64,000 bases of DNA from an uncultured Clostridia bacterium (lineage in GTDB: Bacteria > Bacillota > Clostridia > UBA1381). Below, piece by piece: positions 30,826-37,407 of the stretch (position 1 is its first letter; every line of letters begins with the position of its first letter). The translations under genes and the position numbers were made by a program. Under the pieces are notes generated by a model. It saw nothing but the letters and a program-made list of their open reading frames with translations. It had not been told where the DNA came from and ran no database searches. The stretch lies in assembly GCA_947626135.1 (NCBI GenBank), contig CANQQZ010000002.1, forward strand, positions 1 through 64,000, written 5' to 3'.

Positions 30826-32694
30826 TCATTTTATTTTCAGCGCGCGTATGGCGTTGAGCACCGCGATTATCATAACCCCGACATCGGCGAATATTGCCAG
30901 CCACATGTTAGCCATTCCGAACGCTCCGAGCACAAGACAGACGACTTTTACCCCGAGCGCGAAAATTATGTTTTCATACACTATTGCCATACATTTTTTT
31001 GCAATTTTCAGCGCGCGCGCAATCTTGACCGGGTTATCGTCCATGAGCACAACATCCGCCGCTTCTATAGCGGCGTCGGAGCCGAGAGCGCCCATCGCTA
31101 TACCGACATCGGCGCGGGAAATCACCGGAGCGTCGTTTATTCCGTCCCCGACAAACGCGAGCGTAGATTTGGCGGGCTTCTCGCTCAAAAGCGCCTCCAC
31201 GCGCGAGACCTTATCCGCCGGCAGAAGCCCGCTGTAAAATTCGTCAATACCCACTCCGGCAGCCACGGTCTCCGCCGTTTCAGCGCTGTCTCCGGTGAGC
31301 ATAACTGTTCTTTCAACACCGCGCTTTTTTATTGCCGCCACAGCCTCCGCCGCCGTGGGCTTTATGACGTCGGATATGACTATATATCCGGCGTAAACTC
31401 CGTCCACAGCCGCGTGAATTGCCGTTCCTTCGCTGTCCGCGCATTGCGCGGGGGCTCCCTCTCGCCGCATAAGACGCTCGCTGCCCACTGAGATCCTTTT
31501 TCCGTCCACAACCGCCGTAACGCCCTCTCCGGCAATTTCCTCTATACCGCTTACGCGCGTTTTATCTATAGCCGGAACCGCGTTTCGCAGGCTTTTGGCA
31601 ATCGGATGATTTGAGCCGCTTTCCGCAAGCGCCACATATTCGAGCAGCGCCGCCTCATCTATCCCTTCGGCGCAGACGCGCGTAACCTCAAAAACGCCCT
31701 TCGTCAGCGTTCCTGTTTTGTCAAAAACGACACATTTCGTTTTTGACAGCGCCTCAAGATAATTTGAGCCCTTTACCAAAACGCCTTCTCTGCCCGCACC
31801 GCCGATACCGGCGAAAAAGCTGAGCGGTATGCTTATTACAAGCGCGCACGGACAGCTTATAACAAGAAATGTAAGTGCTCGCATAATCCATCCGCTCCAT
31901 TCGGGAGTAAGCCCCATAATAATCCGGGCGGCGGGTCCCATAACGGCGAGAGCAGCCGCGCCGGCGCATACCGCGGGGGTGTAATATCCGGCGAAACGGC
32001 TTATAAAATTCTCCGAACGCGATTTTTTCGCGCTCGAATTTTCAACAAGCTCAAGTATTTTGGAGACCGTAGATTCTCCAAACTCCCTCGTTGTGCGTAT
32101 TTTTACAAGTCCCGTCATATTAATGCAGCCGCTTTTTACCTCGCCGCCCTCCGAAACGCTGACCGGCACGCTTTCTCCGGTCAATGCGGACATATCAAGC
32201 GACGTATGACCCTCGCATATCACTCCGTCAATAGGAATCTTTTCCCCCGGCTTCACTACAATTACGCTTCCCGTTTCAACCTCGCCCGGATCGACCGTAA
32301 CAACGCTTTCCCCGCGCTCAACGTTGGCATAATCGGGACGTATATCCATAAGAGCGGCAATATTGCGCCGGCTCTTTCCCACCGCCGCACTCTGGAAAAG
32401 CTCTCCGATCTGGTAAAACAGCATAACCGCCGCGCCCTCGCGGAACTCTCCAAGCAAAACCGCGCCAACCGTGGCTAATGCCATGAGAAAATTCTCATCG
32501 AACACCTGACCGTTTACTATTCCCCTTCCGGCTTTGAGCAGTATATCATAGCCTATCACAAGATACGGAACAAGGTACATAATCAGCAGCGCCCACCGCG
32601 GGAAATCGATCATATATGACGCCGCTGAGCATAACACAAGCAGCGCTGCCGATATTATAATACGTATTAACGTCTTTTTCTGCTTTCGGTTCAT
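30826..32694 (-). CDS. Heavy-metal P-type ATPase (Zn/Cd exporter type)
   Basis: This P1B ATPase couples ATP hydrolysis to metal export across the cytoplasmic membrane. The 622-residue protein has the actuator motif TGES, the metal-channel motif SCPCALVIS, the phosphorylation site DKTGTLTKG, the P1B-specific HP dipeptide (SNHPIAKSL) and GDGINDAPVI. The CPC motif with the downstream GAGREGVLVKGSNYLEAL region fits the Zn/Cd/Pb (P1B-2, CadA/ZntA) group. It lacks an N-terminal metal-binding domain; that domain is encoded by the separate gene immediately upstream. Expression should be shared with it from one promoter under an ArsR-like operator. Confidence 0.9.
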   Translation of the reverse strand: MNRKQKKTLIRIIISAALLVLCSAASYMIDFPRWALLIMYLVPYLVIGYDILLKAGRGIVNGQVFDENFLMALATVGAVLLGEFREGAAVMLFYQIGELFQSAAVGKSRRNIAALMDIRPDYANVERGESVVTVDPGEVETGSVIVVKPGEKIPIDGVICEGHTSLDMSALTGESVPVSVSEGGEVKSGCINMTGLVKIRTTREFGESTVSKILELVENSSAKKSRSENFISRFAGYYTPAVCAGAAALAVMGPAARIIMGLTPEWSGWIMRALTFLVISCPCALVISIPLSFFAGIGGAGREGVLVKGSNYLEALSKTKCVVFDKTGTLTKGVFEVTRVCAEGIDEAALLEYVALAESGSNHPIAKSLRNAVPAIDKTRVSGIEEIAGEGVTAVVDGKRISVGSERLMRREGAPAQCADSEGTAIHAAVDGVYAGYIVISDVIKPTAAEAVAAIKKRGVERTVMLTGDSAETAETVAAGVGIDEFYSGLLPADKVSRVEALLSEKPAKSTLAFVGDGINDAPVISRADVGIAMGALGSDAAIEAADVVLMDDNPVKIARALKIAKKCMAIVYENIIFALGVKVVCLVLGAFGMANMWLAIFADVGVMIIAVLNAIRALKIK

Positions 32695-32704
32695 GGCAAT
32701 ATCC

Positions 32705-32923
32705 TCATATATAAATTTCGCAGTCCGATTCTACCCTGCGGCATGCCTTTAATACCTTCTTCATTGTCGCCTTTTCATCGGCGCCGTCTTCAAACTCAAC
32801 ATTCATTTTTAACGCCATAAAGCTTACGACCGCGTTTTTCACGCCATCGGTATTGTTTGCCGCAGCCTCCATTTTGTTCGCGCAATTGGCGCAGTCCACC
32901 TCAATATTATAGCTTTTTTTCAT
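32705..32923 (-). CDS. Free-standing HMA metal-binding domain
   Basis: A 72-residue heavy-metal-associated domain with the CxxC site in VDCANCANKMEAA and the ferredoxin-like betaalphabeta pattern. It corresponds to the N-terminal domain missing from the ATPase 10 bases downstream, so it probably delivers metal to, or regulates, that pump. The start at 32923 follows GGAGGTGCAAATT; an upstream in-frame reading lacks a ribosome binding site. The acidic C-terminal tail (ESDCEIYI) carries an additional cysteine. Confidence 0.88.
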   Translation of the reverse strand: MKKSYNIEVDCANCANKMEAAANNTDGVKNAVVSFMALKMNVEFEDGADEKATMKKVLKACRRVESDCEIYI

Positions 32924-32941
32924 AATTTGCACCTCCATTTT

Positions 32942-32961
32942 ATATGAATACATGTTCATAT
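32942..32961 (-). promoter_or_regulatory. ArsR/SmtB-like operator in the metal ATPase leader
   Basis: ATATGAA and TTCATAT form a perfect inverted repeat spaced by 6 bases, lying about 10 bases after the -10 box. The layout resembles the operators of ArsR/SmtB metal sensors such as CadC and CzrA. No arsR-type gene lies in the window, so the repressor would act in trans. Confidence 0.55.
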
Positions 32962-32970
32962 GATAATATG

Positions 32971-32999
32971 ATTATACCACCTGTTAAGTGCATTGTCAA
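32971..32999 (-). promoter_or_regulatory. Consensus promoter of the HMA/ATPase operon
   Basis: On the minus strand a perfect TTGACA and a perfect TATAAT are 17 bases apart. Such a strong promoter would need repression, in keeping with the operator that follows it. Confidence 0.82.
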
Positions 33000-33029: not shown

Positions 33030-33058
33030 TTGACAAACAATTGCTACAGGTGTAGTAT
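33030..33058 (+). promoter_or_regulatory. Promoter of the blaI-blaR-SLH operon
   Basis: TTGACA at 33030-33035 and TAGTAT at 33053-33058 are 17 bases apart, 41 bases ahead of the blaI-like ATG. The promoter is back to back with the metal ATPase promoter, the two -35 boxes being about 30 bases apart. Confidence 0.75.
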
Positions 33059-33081
33059 ATACATATACTACATATGCAGTA
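33045..33081 (+). promoter_or_regulatory. Overlapping BlaI/MecI-type operators
   Basis: TACAGGTGTA (33045-33054) fits the TACANNTGTA operator core of BlaI/MecI. TACTACATATGCAGTA (33066-33081) is a second, nearly symmetric copy, and GTAGTATA/TATACTAC (33052-33071) forms a perfect pair bridging them. They cover the -10 box and transcription start, so binding should block the promoter and autoregulate the operon. Confidence 0.75.
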
Positions 33082-33098
33082 CAAAGGAGCCGTAAATT

Positions 33099-33485
33099 AT
33101 GAAATTAAAGAAAATCCCGGAAACGGAGCTGGAAATTATGCAGGTAATCTGGTCAAATCCGGTGCCTATTACTACAACGCAAATCAAACAAAAGCTTGAA
33201 GAGAGGCGTCCGTGGAGCCAGGGCGCCGTACAATCGCTGCTGTCAAGGCTGACGGAACGGGGATTCCTGAGGACGGGCACGCTCGGAAAAAGCAAAACCT
33301 TTGAGCCGCTGGTATCGGAGGATGAATATTTTAAGGTGGAGAGCGCGTCCTTTTTTCAGAAATTCGGAGCTAAGAGCTCTATAACCGGACTTGTGGCGTC
33401 GCTCTACGACAGCAACTCTATTTCAAAAAAGGACATTGATGAGCTGGACGCATTTATAGAAACGATTAAGAAGGGCGGAAGGTAA
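33099..33485 (+). CDS. BlaI/MecI/CopY-family transcriptional repressor
   Basis: The 128-residue protein has the winged-helix domain of BlaI/MecI (ETELEIMQVIWSNPVPITTTQIKQ, then GAVQSLLSRLTERGFL) and a C-terminal dimerisation segment (about 75-128), where the partner protease normally cuts. Ribosome binding is by AAAGGAG. It should bind the operators just upstream and repress its own operon. The next gene is the matching BlaR1-type protease, directly abutting. Confidence 0.92.
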   Translation: MKLKKIPETELEIMQVIWSNPVPITTTQIKQKLEERRPWSQGAVQSLLSRLTERGFLRTGTLGKSKTFEPLVSEDEYFKVESASFFQKFGAKSSITGLVASLYDSNSISKKDIDELDAFIETIKKGGR

Positions 33486-34862
33486 ATGGAGAATTTAGTT
33501 ATCGATATTCTTGAAATCACGATACCCGTAAGCATATTCATTGTTATATTGCTTTTGTGCGCGCCGATTTTAAAGCGAGGCTTCGTGTCAAAATGGCGTT
33601 ATTGCATGTGGCTGTTTGTGGCGATACGGCTTATATTGCCGCTCAGACTGAATATAGCCGGTTTCGTCACGCTGACCGTTCCGGTCGGTCCGAACGCGGC
33701 GGCAGCGGGATATCAGACTGCCGCGTGGGCATCCCTGCCCCGGCTGATTACGGTTATATGGCTTGTCGGAGCTGTTATATTCGCCGCATATCAAACGGCA
33801 TGCTATCTGGCCTTCTCCAAAATCGTGCGCAGATGGTCACGGCAAATCACGGACAAGCGTATTCTCGCGGCGGCGCGGCAAGCGGCGGCCTCCGCGGGAG
33901 TAAAACGAAATTTTAAAATAAAATATTGCAGGGCTGTCTCAACGCCCATGATATTCGGCATATTTAAACCGGCTCTGCTTCTGCCGGACATTGATTTCAC
34001 CGATACGGAGCTGTCGATAATACTGCGGCACGAGCTGGTGCATATGAAGCGGCACGATATATGGTATAAGCTGCTCATCATGGCTGCGCGAACAGAGCAT
34101 TGGTTTAATCCCTTAGTTCATCTGATGGCGCGGGCGGCGGATACCGATATGGAGCTTGCGTGTGATGCCGAGGTGGTCAGAAATCAAAGCTCCGCCTATC
34201 GGCGCGGCTATTGTGAAACAATAATGCGTCTGGTCCATAACTGCCGCGGACGGGGCACCGCGCTGTCCACATGCTTCTTTTTCTCGAAGAGAACGGTCCT
34301 GGAGCGCTTCCATGAAATACTCGATGAAAGGATCAAGCGCAGAGGTGCGCTGACCTTCTGTATAATCGCCGTATCGGTAGCCGTATCCGGAGAGGCGATA
34401 ACGTTTGCTGCCGACGGTATCGCCGGTGTAATCGAGGATGAGTTTAAAATCGCCGAGCAGTCCGCAGACGCGCCGATACCATCGCCGGCGGAGGAAACGG
34501 GCGCCGCGGAAAATGTCGGTCCGGCGGAGGAGCAATATTCCGATGAGGATGATTTCGGGTATCGGACGATCGACGATTACGGCGCCGCGGAAAGCTATTC
34601 CGGCGAATCGGACAGCCCCGCCGCCTACTCATACGAATCGGACGGGGACGAGCCGGAATACTATCCCCCAAAATCCGAATACGATTCGTATCATACTGAT
34701 TACGCGGAGGAAACCGGGTCCGATTTGACGGAGCTGCAAAGCGCGCCCGATTATGTTTCCGAAGACGGCAGCCGTGAGACATACCTTCTCGACGACGGCT
34801 CCACGGCGATAGTCCGGTACGACGGAGATATTCCGGACACGGGATATATATTGGTGAAATAA
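33486..34862 (+). CDS. BlaR1-like M56 membrane protease without penicillin sensor
   Basis: BlaR1/MecR1 proteins sense a ligand outside the cell and inactivate BlaI by gluzincin proteolysis. The 458-residue protein has four predicted membrane helices, the zinc motif HELVH at about residue 182, followed by MKRHD, WFNPLVHLMARAAD and ELACDAEVV, all typical of M56. After the last helix (about 290-310) the penicillin-binding sensor of true BlaR1 is missing. In its place is a tail of about 150 residues rich in Tyr, Ser, Asp, Glu and Pro, ending in a short ordered-looking segment (LLDDGSTAIVRYDGD). It therefore probably senses something other than beta-lactams, or relies on a partner. The start codon abuts the repressor stop. 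Confidence 0.88.
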   Translation: MENLVIDILEITIPVSIFIVILLLCAPILKRGFVSKWRYCMWLFVAIRLILPLRLNIAGFVTLTVPVGPNAAAAGYQTAAWASLPRLITVIWLVGAVIFAAYQTACYLAFSKIVRRWSRQITDKRILAAARQAAASAGVKRNFKIKYCRAVSTPMIFGIFKPALLLPDIDFTDTELSIILRHELVHMKRHDIWYKLLIMAARTEHWFNPLVHLMARAADTDMELACDAEVVRNQSSAYRRGYCETIMRLVHNCRGRGTALSTCFFFSKRTVLERFHEILDERIKRRGALTFCIIAVSVAVSGEAITFAADGIAGVIEDEFKIAEQSADAPIPSPAEETGAAENVGPAEEQYSDEDDFGYRTIDDYGAAESYSGESDSPAAYSYESDGDEPEYYPPKSEYDSYHTDYAEETGSDLTELQSAPDYVSEDGSRETYLLDDGSTAIVRYDGDIPDTGYILVK

Positions 34863-34890
34863 CGGTTTTTAAGGGTAAAAGGAGAACAGT

Positions 34891-37407
34891 ATGAAAATTT
34901 TAAAAGGATTGACCGCTGTAATACTGACCGCGGGAATGGCGGCGTCAGCCGTTCCCGCGTCCGCCTCAGGCGGAACGTCCGCTTCGGGCGGAACGTCCGC
35001 TTCGGGCCCGGACAACATACCGTGGATAACGGTATCGTCATGGGCATATCCGGACGTAAGCAATTTCCGCAGGGTCGTGGAGATGCCTGATATGTTCGCG
35101 GACGTGACCGACTATACGCAGCCGATAACGCGTATGCAGCTCGCGCAGCTGCTCGGCGCGACGCTGAAAAGCGCTGGTGAAATATACGATTACGACAGCC
35201 GTGATTCGTATCCGGACAGGTATGAGGACACGGACGATCCGGCGGCGGGAGTGCTGAAGGATTATAATATAATGCGCGGCGAGCCGACAGGCGAGGATGA
35301 ATACGGGGCGACGCTGTATAATTTTTATCCCGACCGCCTGCTGACGCGCGAGGAGCTGGCGGCGGTACTGCGCAGGACAAGGAGGTTTTACCGTCTGGAC
35401 ATATTTGACCCGGATGAAAAAGTCATGGCGGAGGACATAGCCGACTACGATGATATTTCCGGCTACGCGAGGGAGGACGTACTCGATGTGATGGGATGCG
35501 GGCTGATGAACGGCGTGGGCGGCGGCAGATTCGCGCCGAAGGACAGGCTGACGATCGAACAGACGGTTGTCACGCTATACCGCCTGTTCCGGCAGATGCC
35601 GCTTACTCCGGCGGCGGACGGCGCGGGGCTTCCCGACGGGCAGGAATTTAATCAATTTAAAAACGGCGTTACCGAGGAACGAAGCGGGAACACGCTGTAT
35701 TTAAAGCGCGGCGGCGCCGCTCTTATGGAATTTGAGACGGATATTTACGAGAACGTATTCTGTGCCGACAGCGACGGCGTAACGTATGCGGCGGCAGAAA
35801 ACACGTATGACCGCACGGATGTGTACAACGCGGACACAAAGGAGCTGCTGTTCCGCATACCGTACCCGGTTTACGACGCGCAAAGCGATTATATAATCAC
35901 CAAATCGTCCGATACCGGAAAATGTACGTTCGGTCTGTACGGCTACGACGGGAACGAGGCGCTTGAGCCAAAGTACAGCCTTAACGAGATCGATATTTTA
36001 AAGGCGAATAATTTTGTCCCGCCGGAGGATGAATACCGCGCTCCCGACGGCTGGGTTTATTACTTCGATTATAGCGACGGGCATCTATACAGAATAGATA
36101 CGAACGGCGAGAATGAGCAAAAGCTTTCCGACAACAGCTGCTATGACCCGGCATATGTAAACGGCTGGCTTTATTATACCGTGCGCGGCGCGGACGAGAA
36201 TAAGCTGTACACCATGCGCGCCGACGGCAAATACGAGCAGCGGCTTACCGATGAGTGCGCGGGTGTGATAAAGTGCGGAAAGCGCGTGTACGATGAGGAC
36301 CGACCGTCCGGAGATATGGGAGATGTTATCATAAACGGCAGGAACCTCGGCGATATTATCACTCCGTATTTTGACGGCGAGTGGGTGTATTATTTTGAGA
36401 CGGTCAACGAGTATAAAACGCTCGGCAATCTATGGCGTGTCAGGATGAACGAGGACGGCACGGCGGTAAAGGAAAAGGTAAGCGACGAGATATTCGGCTG
36501 CGATAATCTGCACAGCGCCGCCGCGAGCTTCGCCAATCAGCAGAATGACGGGAAATTGTATCTTCTTAATTCGGACAGGGATAAGCTTTATATTTTCGGC
36601 GGCGGAGACGAAAGGGTGATCGAGGCGAATATAAACGAGTTCGGATTTTACGGCGATAAGCTTGTGATGTCGGTAATCACAGGCGAAACGGACGAAAACG
36701 GAAAGAGCGTGACGGAGGTTTACCTTGCGGAGCCGGACGGCTCGGACATACGCATATGGCAGGACGGGAACAGCGTGCTGAATATTGGTACGGTCGATTG
36801 GTTCGACACGTATGTCGATCCCGAAACGGGCGCAACAAAGTATAATACCGTTTATTACGGCGCCAGCAACGAGCGCTTCACGGTATACGCCGTAAATATC
36901 CTTGTGCCGCACGGCAGGAACGGGATGATGGGCGGAATATACGGACTGCATGTGATGGCGGCGGACGGTACGGACAGCGAGGTATGCGCCGGAAGCTGGC
37001 AGGGCGGCATTGAGAGAACAGGCGATATACTGTACTATACGAAAAGCGAAATGAAGGACGGGCGCATGAGCGGCGTTCTGATGGCGTATGATATGAACAC
37101 GGGCGAGCAGACGCGCATGGCGGATGATGTGAACAGATTGACACACGCCGGAACATCGGAGACGAGCGGGGATTTCCTGCTGTATGAGGATAACGGCGGC
37201 AATATCTGGCGGTACAATATTACAGACGGGAAACCGGCGGAGATATTCCCGAACGCGAATCTGAAAAAATACGGCGCGGCTGCCGATTGGAGCAACAGCG
37301 ATAACAGCTTTTTCAAGATTGATACGGACGGCGATTTCACGACAATCGTGGATAACGGCGCGGCGATCTACGTGCCGGACGGATTCCCGGTAAACGTTAC
37401 GCCGTAA
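34891..37407 (+). CDS. SLH-domain exoprotein with DUF5050-like beta-propeller
   Basis: The 838-residue protein has a signal peptide (1-25), a short GTSASG repeat and three SLH-like segments at about 40-95, 105-170 and 185-240, which usually anchor proteins to pyruvylated wall polysaccharide. From about 265 to the end it shows repeated YY-D-x-LYRIDTNGENEQKLSD and GWLYYTV-type strands, as in DUF5050/WD-like beta-propellers. No catalytic residues are recognisable. It lies 28 bases after the blaR-like gene with AAAAGGAGA, so it is the third gene of that operon and the probable output or sensing partner of the BlaI/BlaR system. A terminator follows. Confidence 0.8.
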   Translation: MKILKGLTAVILTAGMAASAVPASASGGTSASGGTSASGPDNIPWITVSSWAYPDVSNFRRVVEMPDMFADVTDYTQPITRMQLAQLLGATLKSAGEIYDYDSRDSYPDRYEDTDDPAAGVLKDYNIMRGEPTGEDEYGATLYNFYPDRLLTREELAAVLRRTRRFYRLDIFDPDEKVMAEDIADYDDISGYAREDVLDVMGCGLMNGVGGGRFAPKDRLTIEQTVVTLYRLFRQMPLTPAADGAGLPDGQEFNQFKNGVTEERSGNTLYLKRGGAALMEFETDIYENVFCADSDGVTYAAAENTYDRTDVYNADTKELLFRIPYPVYDAQSDYIITKSSDTGKCTFGLYGYDGNEALEPKYSLNEIDILKANNFVPPEDEYRAPDGWVYYFDYSDGHLYRIDTNGENEQKLSDNSCYDPAYVNGWLYYTVRGADENKLYTMRADGKYEQRLTDECAGVIKCGKRVYDEDRPSGDMGDVIINGRNLGDIITPYFDGEWVYYFETVNEYKTLGNLWRVRMNEDGTAVKEKVSDEIFGCDNLHSAAASFANQQNDGKLYLLNSDRDKLYIFGGGDERVIEANINEFGFYGDKLVMSVITGETDENGKSVTEVYLAEPDGSDIRIWQDGNSVLNIGTVDWFDTYVDPETGATKYNTVYYGASNERFTVYAVNILVPHGRNGMMGGIYGLHVMAADGTDSEVCAGSWQGGIERTGDILYYTKSEMKDGRMSGVLMAYDMNTGEQTRMADDVNRLTHAGTSETSGDFLLYEDNGGNIWRYNITDGKPAEIFPNANLKKYGAAADWSNSDNSFFKIDTDGDFTTIVDNGAAIYVPDGFPVNVTP

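Follow-up and report, generated by a model that had tools for sequence, protein, structure and literature searches.

The stretch of DNA analyzed here (the window) comprises 64,000 nucleotides from an uncultured Clostridia bacterium (contig CANQQZ010000002.1, positions 1 to 64,000). On its forward strand, at 33045-37407, lies an operon of three genes, annotated as encoding a BlaI-family repressor, an M56 (BlaR1-type) membrane protease, and a secreted protein with SLH repeats and a DUF5050 beta-propeller; the coordinates given to it in an earlier, sequence-only reading of the window were right. Comparison with related genomes gave good support to the view that a small conserved domain at the end of the M56 protein (the tail) and the SLH/beta-module portion of the third protein are a matched pair. 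The features of the operon are as follows.

33030..33058 (+), sigma-70-type promoter of the operon, TTGACA-17-TAGTAT
33045..33054, BlaI box 1, TACAGGTGTA, an exact TACAnnTGTA that covers the promoter spacer and -10 region
33069..33078, BlaI box 2, TACATATGCA, which follows box 1 at a distance of 24 bp and departs from the consensus at one position
33099..33485 (+), BlaI/MecI-family repressor, 128 amino acids (aa), no cysteine (Pfam PF03965, Penicillinase_R, E = 3.9e-23; MecI alignment)
33486..34862 (+), M56 (BlaR1-type) membrane metalloprotease, 458 aa, four hydrophobic segments by hydropathy, no penicillin-binding domain (Pfam PF05569, Peptidase_M56, E = 1.3e-52)
34029..34043 (+), HELVH zinc motif, aa 182-186, with E223 as third ligand
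34260..34277 (+), ALSTCF, aa 259-264, opposite the autocleavage site LSHS/F of BlaR1 in the alignment
34410..34709 (+), extracellular linker, acidic and of low complexity
34710..34859 (+), conserved C-terminal tail domain, aa 409-458, possibly BamE-like (search with tail profile A3, E = 1.1e-20)
34891..37407 (+), secreted SLH/DUF5050 protein, 838 aa
35017..35604 (+), SLH trimer, aa 43-238 (fold match to 6bt4)
35617..36003 (+), beta module of about 130 residues, aa ~243-371 (alignment A7; E = 7.1e-56 here in the family-wide search)
36031..37392 (+), beta-propeller part including DUF5050, aa 381-834 (Z = 10.6 with propeller 3s25)

Promoter, repressor, and protease core

A single promoter with an overlying BlaI box reads into blaI, the M56 gene, and the SLH/DUF5050 gene, with gaps of 0 bp between blaI and the M56 gene and 28 bp between the M56 stop codon and the SLH gene. 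In 52 blaI upstream regions from the family to which this genome belongs, 29 perfect TACAnnTGTA boxes were found, compared to 0.2 expected, and the boxes were commonly paired, 24 to 26 bp apart. Within the window, TACAnnTGTA occurred at the operon promoter only. In the whole genome, double boxes at the operon spacing with up to two mismatches were found at the window operon and at a paralogous blaI-M56-SLH-SLH operon on contig 8, and two further matches had two mismatches each, which was the level of the control. Paired boxes at the operon's own promoter agree with the BlaI regulons of Clostridium thermocellum, which are tiny and autoregulatory and require two inverted-repeat pairs (PMC8457756). 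Like the window repressor, BlaI_0696 and BlaI_1845 of that species lie in their own operons with blaR1 and hypothetical genes, but their box is GTCTAT/GACTAT, and neither an SLH partner nor a tail cassette is described for them (PMC8457756).

The repressor scored 82.4 bits with the Penicillinase_R profile (gathering cutoff, 22.6), and its frame is intact. It reads S/L at the position aligned with N101/F102 of MecI/BlaI, which we take to be the cleavage position in those proteins. Distances among BlaI sequences and among M56 cores were closely correlated (r = 0.98), as expected for a repressor and its protease. The M56 core was found by the PF05569 profile at 179 bits (cutoff, 31). H182, E183, H186, and E223 were invariant in the M56 alignment (A1), and the A1 profile matched Staphylococcus aureus BlaR1 (8exp) at E = 8.5e-25. 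LSTCF of the window protein aligns, as sequence context only, with LSHSF of BlaR1, in which autocleavage falls between Ser283 and Phe284 (PMC9834060). Because the zinc ligands are kept and the BlaR1 autocleavage segment is alignable, the BlaI/M56 chassis looks functional, with protease activity predicted. The sequence-only reading had described repressor, operators, and protease core as intact, and all three parts of that description hold: the repressor matches its family over an unbroken frame, box 1 is exact and overlies the promoter while box 2 has one mismatch, and HELVH, E223, and the four hydrophobic segments are present.

The outer part of the M56 protein, after the last helix, comprises 150 residues with a net charge of -35. 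Pfam found no transpeptidase domain, or any other, in this part, and the protein scored 119 bits with the blaR1_generic model, far below the cutoff of 400, in keeping with the earlier view of a BlaR1-like protein without a penicillin sensor. A penicillin-binding fold in the tail was rejected, the tail being too short and without a profile match. The operon contains no gene for a beta-lactamase or penicillin-binding protein (PBP).

The tail domain and its SLH partner

The outer part had previously been characterized as a Tyr/Ser/Asp/Glu-rich tail of about 150 residues. Besides an acidic linker, it holds a conserved terminal domain of about 50 residues and is not merely a stretch of low complexity. 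The last 50 to 60 or so residues are conserved in relatives, with the consensus GxxRxxVYxxLGEPxxVSxxGxKETYxLxDGSTAVLxYDxxxLxxGYI, and the window copy is shorter at its front than those of relatives. AlphaFold2 run on 21 sequences gave a pLDDT (predicted local distance difference test) score of 83 to 89 over the last third of the modeled fragment, with three strands. Most relatives also encode a small secreted tail homologue of about 80 to 110 aa, its gene lying between the M56 and SLH genes or beside the SLH gene; this gene is missing in the window. Pfam BamE (PF04355) matched 5 of 13 members of the set made up of tails and small secreted proteins, with a best E value of 8e-4, below the cutoff. 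Weak fold matches of the tail model to OsmE (4dm5, Z = 2.6) and a BLIP-like protein (3d4e, Z = 2.7) stood among unrelated rows of tied low Z (VIA-align), a Foldseek search with the tail model returned nothing at E ≤ 0.001, and the tail profile matched no PDB sequence. The tail domain is possibly BamE-like, which is offered as a lead only: like the small secreted proteins, it shares with BamE/SmpA and BLIP-fold small domains a weak sequence likeness and an order of three strands behind a short helix, but assignment to either was held back because the profile matches were below the cutoff and the structural matches were tied at low Z, too weak for filing. A search of 391 genomes in the class placed the tail in this family alone, apart from three weak matches elsewhere, to proteins that were small and lipoprotein-like or of another kind. 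The small BamE-like lipoproteins L220 and L222, from outside the family, matched the tail weakly, and no M56 or BlaI gene was seen around L222.

The third protein has one SLH repeat above the Pfam cutoff. The predicted fold of aa 22-238 was matched to the SLH domains of Sap from Bacillus anthracis with a pyruvylated secondary cell wall polysaccharide unit (6bt4; Z = 17.7, root mean square deviation 2.4, 161 residues). The genome encodes the pyruvyl transferase CsaB (273 bits; cutoff, 213) and contains 86 SLH repeats. The protein shares the SLH trimer fold with SLH-anchored proteins such as Sap and differs from them in carrying a beta module and a propeller and in its BlaI/M56 operon setting. 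DUF5050 (PF16472) was detected at E = 1.1e-13 (51.4 bits; cutoff, 27). The beta module alone gave weak matches only to Pfam and only single-stretch WD-repeat matches to PDB sequences (E ≥ 0.0095). Among tail-bearing relatives, the SLH trimer and the beta module were constant and the distal part varied. Most carried a DUF5050 propeller, L197 had a weak Cu_amine_oxidN1-like region instead, L105 had no recognized domain in its place, and the L111 surface protein (436 aa) had little beyond SLH and beta module. The earlier account of the third gene as encoding an SLH-anchored propeller protein therefore stands for the SLH coupling and not for the propeller as the defining element, which is replaceable among relatives. 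Near the start of the SLH protein, a tandem SASGGT coding repeat was noted (window about 34965-35010). The SLH protein of L120 (3786-5402), though different in other respects, has a longer SASGGT repeat as a linker.

Among 70 genomes of the family, the tail domain (A3) and the beta module (A7) were found in the identical 20, and the other 50 had neither. These genomes are related (5 of 17 genera) and hence do not count as 70 independent observations. An SLH partner was encoded in the cluster, on the same strand, at 24 of the 26 tail-bearing M56 loci, and at the remaining two (L090 and L091) the contigs end just behind the M56 gene. A finding of the SLH gene unlinked from blaI and the M56 gene in all relatives had been named as a refutation of the earlier reading; linkage held at every locus where it could be assessed. 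When about 85,000 species genomes were scanned, SLH and propeller were found together at 14 loci, all in metagenome-assembled genomes (MAGs) labeled Clostridia, Oscillospiraceae, or simply bacterium; more distant propeller proteins also matched, without the operon. Several SLH copies lie behind one receptor in L109, L112, and L190. The SLH-propeller copies are tandem and diverged, with four in L109 (7122-18508) and three in L112 (1-6885).

Apparent exchange of outer parts between M56 lineages

A tree of 54 M56 cores, with neighborhoods assessable for 52 rows, was used to follow the outer parts. The type of tail and that of the partner (SLH/beta-module) agreed in 52 of 52 assessable rows, and this shared label requires at least five changes on well-supported branches; its origin in a single clade was rejected (approximately unbiased [AU] test, P = 5e-68). 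The BlaI and M56 proteins of L120 and L197 are similar up to the juxtamembrane region, with identity high to ...EIMPEPIAEFIDEA, and the promoter regions of the two loci share motifs, but beyond the juxtamembrane region the linkers and tails are unalike and the downstream surface proteins not convincingly alignable. The M56 core of L106 falls inside the clade of the window protein, yet it carries another tail and is followed by another SLH protein. On the evidence of the label changes, the L120/L197 pair, and L106, a cytoplasmic half (operator, BlaI, and M56 core) and an outer half (tail and SLH partner) behave as two exchangeable units. Two proteins in which M56 and SLH repeats are fused, in L113 (6656-8551, reverse strand) and L114 (6743-9259, forward strand), show that a receptor can itself carry an SLH part.

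Further arrangements were seen in and beyond this genome. A second widespread BlaI-M56-SLH type ("type B"), a sister of the window type, was present in L087, L088, L089, L094, L106, and L118 to L121; its tail ends in a beta-rich part, its SLH partner is 476 to 633 aa long and mostly ends in a motif like DITLIDYLNG, and several loci have double CTACAnnnTGTAG-like boxes. In the 2.33-Mb genome of the window, each of the eight BlaI genes is paired with one of the eight M56 genes. The outer parts differ greatly and include a Cu_amine_oxidN1-like part in L021 and regions of 400 to 500 residues of no recognized family in L024 and L026. In L022 (4622-6639), L023 (4677-6900), and L027 (4253-7179), the M56 protein has only 265 to 288 aa and no outer domain and is followed by a separate gene, encoding proteins of 389 aa and 454 aa without annotation and a LytR-CpsA-Psr protein of 548 aa; these are perhaps split receptors. 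The paralogous operon on contig 8 (L025, 2189-7853) has a third type of tail, and each of its two surface proteins carries SLH repeats in its front part.

Signaling model and alternatives

The operon resembles the BlaI-BlaR1 and MecI-MecR1 systems of S. aureus and Bacillus licheniformis in its repressor family, its TACAnnTGTA-type operators, its M56 HExxH...E protease with four transmembrane helices and an extracellular part after the last, and its autocleavage context. It differs in having neither the penicillin-binding sensor nor a beta-lactamase or PBP target gene, and in having, in their stead, an acidic linker tipped by a small conserved domain and a wall-anchored SLH partner. Its parts belong to known families, and we file the arrangement as a variant of BlaI/M56 signaling and not as a BlaR1 beta-lactam sensor. 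The sequence-only reading had not recognized it as a described system, and no description of a blaI-M56-SLH arrangement was found in the literature searched, the coverage of which left out most subscription journals.

On balance, the operon is probably an autoregulated BlaI/M56 signaling operon with the protein pair as its extracellular input. In the resting state, BlaI dimers on the two boxes would close the single promoter of the three genes. The M56 protein, predicted to cross the membrane four times, would display the small terminal domain outside on its long acidic linker, and this domain may dock on the wall-anchored SLH protein of the operon, most likely at the beta module beside the SLH repeats, while the distal head (here the propeller) would meet the wall or the environment. 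An altered contact, with the partner absent, displaced, or ligand bound, could then lead M56 to cleave itself and BlaI, as in BlaR1, which would derepress the whole operon and yield more receptor and more surface protein. In most relatives, the threshold could be set by the small secreted tail copy as a competitor for the partner. Direct binding of tail and partner, cleavage of BlaI in this system, the direction of the signal, and the competitor role of the secreted copy are what we infer. That tail and SLH partner have changed together repeatedly favors a sensing role of the SLH protein alongside its coregulation.

Several observations weigh against the pair as input. The tail and the SLH gene are adjacent, and one recombination could move both without physical contact of their products. 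Only five independent contrasts fell on supported branches (sign test, P = 0.0625), tail and propeller distances were weakly correlated once the core was taken into account (0.18, P = 0.09), and the relatives are without exception MAGs from a single uncultured family. The same adjacency is central to the main rival, a less likely explanation in which the SLH protein is a regulated output only, the tail senses a small molecule, a peptide, or envelope strain, and the two genes move together as neighbors. The position of the SLH gene, 28 bp behind the M56 gene and downstream of the sole promoter with BlaI boxes, is as this explanation would have it, as are the weak distance correlation and the several SLH copies per receptor, which are expected of an expanding output. 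The coincidence of tail and beta module in an identical set of 20 among 70 genomes and across at least five chassis lineages, however, exceeds what linkage to an output needs, the break between L120 and L197 falls near the start of the outer part, and the fused proteins place the SLH part on the receptor itself.

A response to wall stress or beta-lactams, in which a muropeptide coactivator frees BlaI or M56 senses damage to the wall and the envelope is strengthened by the SLH protein, has a precedent in the muropeptide coactivator described for B. licheniformis BlaI (PMC3305447) and a BlaR1-type chassis to act through; we regard it as improbable, as a penicillin-binding domain is lacking, the operon codes for neither a beta-lactamase nor a PBP, and the matched tail and partner would be left unexplained. 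Decay to a system that is constitutive or has no real input might be read from the front-shortened tail domain and the missing small secreted copy, but no frame is broken, the motifs for zinc binding and cleavage are preserved, the boxes are near perfect, and the same operon is kept in close relatives, which makes decay very improbable. Scarcely any weight remains for a CopY-like metal repressor controlling the divergent, adjoining HMA/P-type ATPase genes (30826-32959). CopY/TcrY repressors share a superfamily and an operator core with the window BlaI, and CopY_TcrY was the nearest NCBIfam model, but its score of 68.9 bits was far below the cutoff of 121.95. CopY/TcrY repressors bind metal at a CxCxxxxCxC motif, which a BlaI without cysteine cannot form. 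The window BlaI also has an M56 partner, the genes on the ATPase side have a separate consensus promoter (32971-32999) away from the BlaI boxes, and an ATPase homologue was in view at only one tail-bearing locus (L105), several genes away. The metal reading was rejected on the score, the absence of cysteine, and the separate promoter.

Beyond the window, the input pair may exemplify a Gram-positive coreceptor family, a generalization that we hold tentatively, at slightly less than even confidence. In such a family, a BlaI/M56 chassis would be combined with exchangeable cassettes of tail, cognate SLH protein, and often a secreted decoy tail, so that the cell could monitor its own wall proteins via regulated proteolysis and acquire new inputs by cassette swap. 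To our knowledge, BlaR1-type proteases have been described almost exclusively in the role of penicillin sensors. Should the outer half prove to be an interchangeable cassette of tail and surface protein, M56 signaling would serve Gram-positive gut bacteria generally as a means of surveying their own wall or surface coat, and L120/L197, a pair swapped by nature, would offer a ready test of what such receptors perceive.

Next to the operon, the divergent genes for an HMA protein and a heavy-metal P-type ATPase, together with their consensus promoter (TTGACA-17-TATAAT), occupy 30826-32999. A palindrome-like stretch lies near 32943-32970 and resembles ArsR/SmtB operators.

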